A stretch of 45,260 bases of DNA from an uncultured Saprospiraceae bacterium (GTDB lineage Bacteria > Bacteroidota > Bacteroidia > Chitinophagales > Saprospiraceae): NCBI GenBank assembly GCA_937924145.1, contig CALDTJ010000540.1:1-45260 (forward strand). Direction: 5' to 3'. Positions 17,201 through 19,451 of this stretch are shown one piece after another (the stretch's first letter is position 1; every line of letters starts with the position of its first letter). The position numbers and the translations under genes are program-made. The notes below the pieces were generated by a model. The model was given only the letters and a program-made list of their open reading frames with translations, did no database searches and had not been told where the DNA came from.

Positions 17201-18709
17201 ATGAAAATTCTAACACCAAAACAGATAAAAGCACTGGACGCCTATACTATTGAAACAGAGCCTATTAAGTCGATTGACCTAATGGAACGTGCTTCGAATG
17301 CTTTTGTCAATTGGTTTATTACTCAATATCCAGACACAGAAAGAACCCCAATTAAAGTATTTTGTGGACCTGGTAATAATGGTGGGGATGGATTGGCGGT
17401 TGCTCGTTTATTGAATCGCAAATATTATGGAGTAGAAGTTTACATCTGTGCGATTAGTGCCAATCCTAGTCCAGATTTCAAAAAGAACTTAAAAAGAATA
17501 CCTAGCAGGAGAGGGTTGCCAGTTATAAATATTAAGGAAGGTGCTACTTTTCCAACCTTTGGGAAAAATGCGGTCATCATTGATGCTATTTTTGGATCAG
17601 GGTTGAATCGACCAATTACAGGGTATTGGGGTAAACTAGTAGAACATTTGAATAGTCTGGAAAATGATCGAGTAGCTATTGACATTCCGTCAGGTTTATT
17701 TGCTGAAGAAACGACCAAAGGCATTAGTATAAATGCCAATAAAACGCTAAGTTTTCAATTTCCCAAAAGGGCGTTTTTCTTTCCAGAAAACCAAGATAGA
17801 GTAGGGGATTGTTTTATTAAGCCAATTGGCTTGAGTCGGTATTATATCCAACAGGCGGAAACGGATAACTATTTTATCAACAAAAATCTAGCAAAATTAA
17901 TTTTAAGAAAAAGACAAAAGTTCGATCATAAAGGAACTTATGGGCATGCCTTGTTAATGTTGGGCAGTTACGGAAAGATAGGTGCAGCTGTATTGGCAAC
18001 CAAGGGGTGTTTGAGAAGTGGAGTCGGCTTGTTAACGGTACAAGTGCCAAATTGTGGGTATCAAATTATGCAGATAAGTTGTCCAGAGGCGATGACACAG
18101 GTAGATCAATCGGATAATTATTTATCGACCGTTCCTGATTTAACACCTTACAAAGCAATAGGCATTGGTTGTGGGATAGGGCAGGCATCTTTAACCGAAA
18201 TTGCTCTATTTAAACTATTAGGAAATACTAAATTGCCAATGGTGCTTGATGCGGATGCACTGAATATATTATCAAAAGATCCAGCTAAATTAGATCAAAT
18301 ACCAATCAATAGTATTCTAACACCTCATCCGAAAGAGTTTGAGCGTCTATTTGGTACTACTGAAAATGACTTTGCTAGAAATGAATTACAATTAGCTCAA
18401 GCAAAGGCTTTGAATTGTGTCATTATTTTGAAAGGAGCGAATACAGCGATTGCCTGCCCTGATGGAACTTGTTATTTTAATTCTACTGGAAACCCAGGGA
18501 TGGCGACAGGTGGAAGTGGTGATGTATTGACTGGGATATTGACAGGGTTATTAGCACAAGGGTATACTTCAAAGCAAGCAGCTATATTGGGCGTTTATCT
18601 ACATGGACTATCAGGAGATTTGGCAGCAAAAGATAAAGGGCAGGCAAGTATGATTGCTGGTGATTTGGTGGATTATTTGGGGCGGGCTTTTCAACAACTT
18701 GAGCTATAG
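17201..18709 (+). CDS. nnr: Bifunctional ADP-dependent NAD(P)H-hydrate dehydratase / NAD(P)H-hydrate epimerase
   Basis: CGPGNNGGDGLAVARLL (epimerase) and LTPHPKEFERLFG...NPGMATGGSGDVLTGILTGLLAQG (dehydratase). Confidence 0.95.
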   Translation: MKILTPKQIKALDAYTIETEPIKSIDLMERASNAFVNWFITQYPDTERTPIKVFCGPGNNGGDGLAVARLLNRKYYGVEVYICAISANPSPDFKKNLKRIPSRRGLPVINIKEGATFPTFGKNAVIIDAIFGSGLNRPITGYWGKLVEHLNSLENDRVAIDIPSGLFAEETTKGISINANKTLSFQFPKRAFFFPENQDRVGDCFIKPIGLSRYYIQQAETDNYFINKNLAKLILRKRQKFDHKGTYGHALLMLGSYGKIGAAVLATKGCLRSGVGLLTVQVPNCGYQIMQISCPEAMTQVDQSDNYLSTVPDLTPYKAIGIGCGIGQASLTEIALFKLLGNTKLPMVLDADALNILSKDPAKLDQIPINSILTPHPKEFERLFGTTENDFARNELQLAQAKALNCVIILKGANTAIACPDGTCYFNSTGNPGMATGGSGDVLTGILTGLLAQGYTSKQAAILGVYLHGLSGDLAAKDKGQASMIAGDLVDYLGRAFQQLEL

Positions 18710-18716
18710 TTTTTTT

Positions 18717-18819
18717 GAACCACAAAGAAACAAAGGTCACAAAGCGTTTTCACAAAGAAGAAAGGAATAAAATCTTTGTGAGTTTCCTTTGTGTGCTTTG
18801 TTTCTTTGTGGTTCAAAAA
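18717..18819. repeat. 103-bp hairpin repeat, copy 1
   Basis: Identical over 103 bp to 19349-19451; arms GAACCACAAAGAAACAAAG / CTTTGTTTCTTTGTGGTTC perfectly complementary (19 bp). Confidence 0.95.
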
Positions 18820-18925
18820 TTAAAGGCGAATAGTGCAAAAAATAAATGTAAGGTTAGAATATTGAAATAGTTTTACGTACCTTTTGTGTTAGGAATGTTA
18901 TTCTTTAACACAAAAAATAAAAACT

Positions 18926-19342
18926 ATGAGAAGAATTACAAAATCGTACCTAGATGAATTAACTTATCTTGTAAATGGAGCAGCTATTGAAGTTCACAGG
19001 GAAACAGGTCCTGGACTTTTAGAGAGTGCATATCATGAATGTTTGATAGAGGAGTTAACGCTTCGTAAGATTAATTTTCGAACAGAAATGATTGTTCCAT
19101 TTGATTATAAAGGTAAACAGATGACAACCCAATTTAGGTGTGATTTATATATTGAAAACTGTTTGGTAATCGAATTGAAAGCACAGGAAAAAATCCTACC
19201 AATTCATGAGGCACAAATATTAACCTATATGAAATTATTAAAAGCCCCCAAAGGAGTGCTTTATAATTTCAATGTGACTAACTTGTTTAGAGAGGGGCAA
19301 AAGACTTATGTTAATGAATATTTTAGAATGTTACCAGAATAG
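18926..19342 (+). CDS. GxxExxY protein (PDDEXK_3-like family)
   Basis: NGAAIEVHRETGPGLLESAYHECLIEEL and LVIELKAQEKILPIHEAQILTYMKL. Confidence 0.9.
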   Translation: MRRITKSYLDELTYLVNGAAIEVHRETGPGLLESAYHECLIEELTLRKINFRTEMIVPFDYKGKQMTTQFRCDLYIENCLVIELKAQEKILPIHEAQILTYMKLLKAPKGVLYNFNVTNLFREGQKTYVNEYFRMLPE

Positions 19343-19348
19343 ATTGTA

Positions 19349-19451
19349 GAACCACAAAGAAACAAAGGTCACAAAGCGTTTTCACAAAGAAGAAAGGAAT
19401 AAAATCTTTGTGAGTTTCCTTTGTGTGCTTTGTTTCTTTGTGGTTCAAAAA
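19349..19451. repeat. 103-bp hairpin repeat, copy 2
   Basis: Identical to 18717-18819. Confidence 0.95.

Follow-up and report, generated by a model that had tools for sequence, protein, structure and literature searches.

A GxxExxY nuclease gene between identical palindromes and the pairing of GxxExxY lineages with dispersed cognate repeats: a putative two-part mobile element

The window analysed here, a stretch of 45,260 nucleotides from an uncultured Saprospiraceae bacterium, contains a gene of the GxxExxY family enclosed by two hairpin-forming repeats, which raises the question of whether gene and repeats move together and, if so, by what means. The longest run shared by the two repeat copies is exactly 103 bp (copy 1, 18717-18819; copy 2, 19349-19451; neither assigned to a strand), with a start-to-start spacing of 632 bp, and divergence is immediate beyond it. 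Each copy is a three-part hairpin with an outer stem of 19 bp and inner stems of 7 bp and 9 bp, whose DNA folding energy is -33.1 kcal/mol, compared with -11.6 +/- 2.7 kcal/mol for dinucleotide shuffles (z = -8.0). The arms consist of arrayed copies of the word CACAAAG, which in copy 1 is located at 18721, 18738 and 18751, with ACAAAG at 18730; the reverse complements are found at 18774, 18787, 18796 and 18804. The upstream gene nnr (YjeF_N and Carb_kinase domains) ends at 18709, leaving a gap of 7 bp to copy 1, and 6 bp separate copy 2 from the stop codon of the GxxExxY gene, whose last base is 19342; the downstream neighbour of the cassette is the ribosomal gene rpsL. Repeat length, unit size, self-folding and both spacings had been described in the initial annotation and were reproduced.

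Apart from the GxxExxY gene (18926-19342, plus strand, 138 aa), the sequence between the repeats contains no ORF of 80 aa or more, and no gene for a DDE or other known transposase is present there. A candidate Bacteroidota-type promoter (TTG ... TACCTTTTG, 18862-18886, plus strand), read by eye and by the same reading similar to one preceding rpsL, would provide the cassette with a promoter of its own that travels inside it. A comparison of the window with Rfam returned no hit.

The gene is intact, and its product matches TIGR04256 (3e-37, 127 bits against a curated cut-off of 35) and PF13366 (PDDEXK_3; 8e-36, 123.5 bits against a curated cut-off of 22). Residues G30, E33, Y36, D73, E83, K85, Y101 and F115 are invariant among 48 diverse members of the family, while in a second protein set D73, E83 and K85 are invariant and H24, Q97 and Y101 nearly so. 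The window protein thus has the D ... ExK and QxxxY active-site pattern, which the structural model places on the expected fold. The combination of PD-(D/E)XK and QxxxY is the pattern of Cas4/RecB nucleases. The AF2 model (pLDDT 96) has a Cas4-like fold and is nearest to Cas4 SSO0001 (4ic1, E 5e-4), with weaker similarity to lambda exonuclease, LHK-Exo and others. GxxExxY is therefore predicted to be a small Cas4/RecB-type PD-(D/E)XK nuclease. A sequence search for relatives of solved structure returned none, and PADLOC reported weak Cas4 similarity and nothing else. Among phage records there was no relative, plasmid records yielded 8 distant ones, and IMG/VR a single one (L264), on a contig classed as viral. 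Within the order, PF13366 genes are present in 138 of 199 genomes. No description of a function for GxxExxY proteins, or of their pairing with palindromes, was found in the literature searched, which included few subscription journals, and the letters of the repeat appeared in unrelated papers alone. Two-domain GxxExxY proteins (about 264-294 aa, fused in tandem) are encoded at L111:997-1881 and L114:1624-2415, and both genes are flanked by longer arms made of GTTGAC and GGATT words.

The initial annotation named a common intergenic repeat, without enrichment near GxxExxY genes, as the outcome that would speak against its cassette. Among the matches listed, the repeat family occurs at about 28 further places in its own 7.0-Mb, 654-contig genome. 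No other GxxExxY gene lies on a contig that holds one of them, and all 17 gene-less copies that were aligned are intergenic; as one of about 30 dispersed copies, the window repeat is not special to this gene and, taken by itself, belongs to just such a common element. Full-length copies elsewhere in the genome are 75-88% identical. The two window copies are identical to each other, while the other full-length copies among the matches listed reach at most 88%; this suggests that a duplication occurred recently, that gene conversion made the copies alike, or that a unit of palindrome and gene was inserted where a palindrome already stood. Several flanks of the other GxxExxY genes of this genome also contain palindromes, differing in sequence from the window repeat. 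When the best 40 of 350 probe candidates were scored, one of these palindrome types, C200, proved to have at least 30 copies in the genome, and the other types few copies each. Some CACAAAG palindromes hold other palindromes, or arms of other families, in their loops (L126, C45:8911-9233; L127, C87:8778-9040; L128, C651:4304-4345) and are nested insertions into hairpin loops.

PF13366 genes and their flanks were taken from 40 relatives, together with 80 loci from named genomes that span many phyla; the latter set is biased toward the GPGLLES subfamily, because its query alignment was a subset, all 48 proteins being too diverse. An inverted flank match, defined as an upstream versus downstream score of at least 18, was found at 29/49 loci of the relatives' set compared with 5/207 control ORFs, and at 38/80 loci of the many-phyla set compared with 3/245 controls. 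In the pooled material, such a match is present at 69/133 loci (52%), as against 1.0% of mispaired flanks, 0.2% of shuffled flanks and 4/176 (2%) of ordinary intergenic-flanked control genes (p = 2e-26 for the last comparison). At about half of the GxxExxY loci, clear inverted arms were not found within 300 bp. The frequent arm plan consists of an outer ACC followed by a word of the form RYNNAG, repeated 3-4 times with a spacing of 8-9 bp; strict ACC-RYNNAG arrays stand on both sides of the gene at 22/133 loci, against 0/495. The words of this group include CACAAAG, CACATAG, CACTAAG, CACGAAG, CGCAGAG, CACGGAG, CATTAAG and others, and a second group of arms is built on GATT-type words. The pattern occurs in Bacteroidota, Planctomycetota, Proteobacteria, Acidobacteria, Chloroflexota, Cloacimonadota and others. 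At about 20 of the 133 loci (e.g. L173, L190, L238, L161, L162 and L232), as in the window, the gene has a whole palindrome or a long direct repeat on either side. The general unit is a gene between two inverted arms, and two full hairpins are one form of it. The expected enrichment of the repeat near GxxExxY genes does not hold for the window family alone, but emerges only when each nuclease lineage is set against the word of its own arms. On a Sphingomonas plasmid (L240), a GxxExxY gene is located within a fatty-acid synthesis operon (fabD-GxxExxY-fabG), with CGCGAAG-type words upstream. At L113:1090-1300 (C433), a row of tRNA-like sequences lies directly downstream of the GxxExxY gene.

Nuclease lineage and repeat word are associated across phyla. 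Arm similarity correlates with protein identity (Mantel r = 0.52, the largest value in 2000 permutations being 0.16), and r is 0.43 when the protein pairs are limited to those less than 60% identical; part of this correlation could stem from vertical descent. Within one genus, the arms of homologue pairs have similarities of 0.72 (window gene and L107), 0.83 (L109 and L115) and 0.82 (L112 and L118), compared with mostly 0.15-0.35 for non-homologue pairs; for L111 and L114, none of the sister-species arms stood out clearly as a partner in this comparison. Exact ACC-RCNNAG arrays are present in 19 of 20 GxxExxY-carrying genomes from other phyla, with about 690 matches compared with about 15 for the reversed pattern, and often form plus/minus pairs 40-100 bp apart. 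Among the 199 genomes of the order, arrays were found in 46/138 with PF13366 and in 3/61 without it (p = 5e-6, a value that ignores kinship). One exception is G058 (L285-L314), in which PF13366 is absent and 45 single, non-palindromic arms (GCTGACCACAAAGAAC...) are present; these arms might form a family of half-elements, or the nuclease might have been lost from this genome.

Comparison of related genomes points to movement of the gene together with its arms. For the window gene and L107, for L112 and L118, for L110, L116 and L119, and for L114 and L117, homology in the regions compared is confined to the GxxExxY gene, which places the genes of these four groups at unrelated sites; L109 and L115, on the other hand, represent a single conserved site. 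Matching arms accompany the gene at its unrelated sites in the first two of these groups. L107, the closest homologue of the window gene in the genus (70% identical), is located in a sister species and also has CACAAAG arms. The proposal of a mobile cassette gains from this locus and from the hairpin-gene-hairpin loci, and is borne out in part. For the window locus itself, the nnr-rpsL junction is not conserved in the genus and no empty-site counterpart was found.

Several sites are polymorphic. At the sufB-sufC junction of Chryseobacterium and its relatives, G252 has a short, empty gap with no palindrome, G250 and G251 carry a CATTAAG-type GxxExxY gene, G248 a gene of a different subfamily with other arms, G249 an apparent arm relic, and G247 an acetyltransferase-like gene. 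This junction is a recurrent insertion site (L330, L331, L334, L336, L339, L321, L323). At the Flavobacterium hemC site, G041 has neither palindrome nor gene and three other genomes have the gene with arms, while a Flavobacterium site preceding a sufT-like gene holds either gene-less palindromes of two kinds or the gene with arms. Twenty C200-type copies share the ends GTAACTATTCA...TGAATAGTTAC, which are degenerate in some, and 7 of the 20 are bordered by exact 8-bp target duplications, compared with 3.2% between copies (p = 2e-6). In the CACAAAG family, no target duplication was detected in several flank windows, within-copy matches not exceeding those between copies. In the window genome, the GxxExxY gene of C216 (L110:8391-8987), itself located between CACATAG arms, is interrupted by a C184-type palindrome of about 160 bp with the ends TAG...CTA.

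Based on these observations, we suggest that the window gene and its two hairpins may represent a mobile element of two parts, in the form that carries the gene. One part would be the GxxExxY nuclease and the other a palindrome, whose arms would be spaced repeats of a short word recognised by the nuclease; the gene would be carried between two inverted arms or, as in the window, between two whole palindromes, and the scattered gene-less palindromes would be non-autonomous copies, similar to MITEs or REPINs. The palindrome might become accessible by folding into a hairpin or cruciform, on the lagging strand for instance, and the nuclease would bind the word arrays and cut both the hairpin base and the target. 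Host repair would then copy or join the element in; the target would sometimes be a palindrome already present, and the result would then be the hairpin-gene-hairpin form. The role of GxxExxY as the mover of the palindromes is what we infer, together with every chemical step of this scheme; the earlier idea that the nuclease acts on its own flanks seems plausible.

The closest parallel is the REP/RAYT (TnpA-REP) system, or REPtron, in which a single gene likewise lies between two inverted cognate palindromes (PMC2817692, PMC8266576). Nunvar et al. described RAYTs as marked by flanking inverted REPs, as coevolving with them and as correlated with REP abundance (PMC2817692). Coevolution of protein and repeat, abundant cognate gene-less repeats and intergenic placement are shared by both systems. 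However, the REPtron enzyme is an HUH Y1 transposase and the present one a Cas4/RecB-like PD-(D/E)XK nuclease; REPs are 20-40 bp long and GTAG/CGTC-tagged, whereas GxxExxY arms are word arrays of 35-60 bp (ACC-RYNNAG, 3-4 times); and one palindrome family of a GxxExxY genome (C200) is flanked by 8-bp target duplications. The GxxExxY elements share the flanking, coevolution and dispersal features of REP/RAYT, but, since their enzyme is not of the HUH type, they do not belong to it. MITEs accompanied by an autonomous TIR transposon offer a further likeness, as internally deleted, terminally repeated, target-duplicating copies exist beside a gene-bearing form; here, however, that form lacks a known transposase gene, and the window family lacks a detected target duplication. 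Homing endonuclease genes are also lone, small nuclease genes that behave as selfish cassettes, but the GxxExxY element has terminal palindromes, gene-less dispersed copies and sites with an empty form. From Cas4, lambda exonuclease, RecE and AddB-type enzymes, with which GxxExxY shares the fold and the motifs D, ExK and QxxxY, it differs in being paired with palindromes and in occurring outside CRISPR, phage recombination and RecBCD contexts.

We consider it probable that the locus reflects a partnership of the REP/RAYT kind, in which a Cas4/RecB-type nuclease stands in the place of the HUH transposase and mobilises cognate palindromes. Evidence against this reading comes from the GxxExxY loci without clear inverted arms, about half of the total, from the CACAAAG family, for which no target duplication was detected, from G058, and from L111 and L114 with their missing arm partners. 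The recurrent pairing of nuclease and repeat across phyla suggests a mobile element of a kind not yet described; the bolder claim of a new class of prokaryotic elements, in which a lone Cas4-like nuclease mobilises its own and gene-less palindromes in many phyla and follows a readable protein-word code, appears to us evenly balanced. The pairing gives the common GxxExxY family a testable role and would explain a class of repeats found in many environmental genomes. It would also show that a REP/RAYT-like lifestyle can arise with an unrelated nuclease and, if the word-protein pairing is a recognition code, sequence-specific nucleases might be obtained from it.

The strongest competing explanation invokes a conventional transposase, unseen and unrelated to GxxExxY, that moves ordinary MITEs in which the GxxExxY gene lives as a passenger or regulator. 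The shared ends and 8-bp duplications of C200, which resemble those of DDE-transposon MITEs, agree with it, as does the palindrome of the C184 family inserted into the C216 gene. A passenger would not, however, be expected to covary with its arms across phyla, nor does this account fit lineage-specific arm words that flank GxxExxY genes in many phyla and at unrelated sites, with comparable flanks around just 3-5 of about 200-245 control genes; we regard it as rather unlikely. Less likely still is homing, in which the nuclease would cut gene-less palindromes serving as landing pads and repair would copy the cassette in. Such a process would account for the hairpin-gene-hairpin loci, with their similar and locus-specific hairpins, for the greater identity of the window copies to each other than to the remaining listed copies, and for a Flavobacterium site that has gene-less palindromes in two genomes and the gene with arms in others. 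Many loci have single arms instead of whole hairpins, however, the empty sufB-sufC form has no palindrome at all, cutting at some 28 sites would be costly, and the spread of gene-less palindromes with target duplications would be left unexplained.

It is very improbable that the arms are merely autoregulatory operators or terminators of the gene and the dispersed copies unrelated repeats. Hairpins near the start and stop codons, and neighbours that are co-directional at 77-83% of loci, would suit such a role, but cognate copies are dispersed with no GxxExxY gene nearby, gene and arms occur together at unrelated sites, and a simple scan of the window region found no terminator-like site. Least credible of all is a RAYT, an HUH Y1 transposase, as the mover of the palindromes, which would then be REPs: the logic of a gene with dispersed cognate palindromes is common to both, but GxxExxY is of the PD-(D/E)XK type. 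This candidate was rejected, as none of seven palindrome probes occurs in the flanks of the two PF01797 genes that the genome contains. A Y1 (PF01797) gene at L346 (C484) has inverted flanks of its own (score 35.5), of a different sequence, and is a candidate RAYT or IS200-like element.
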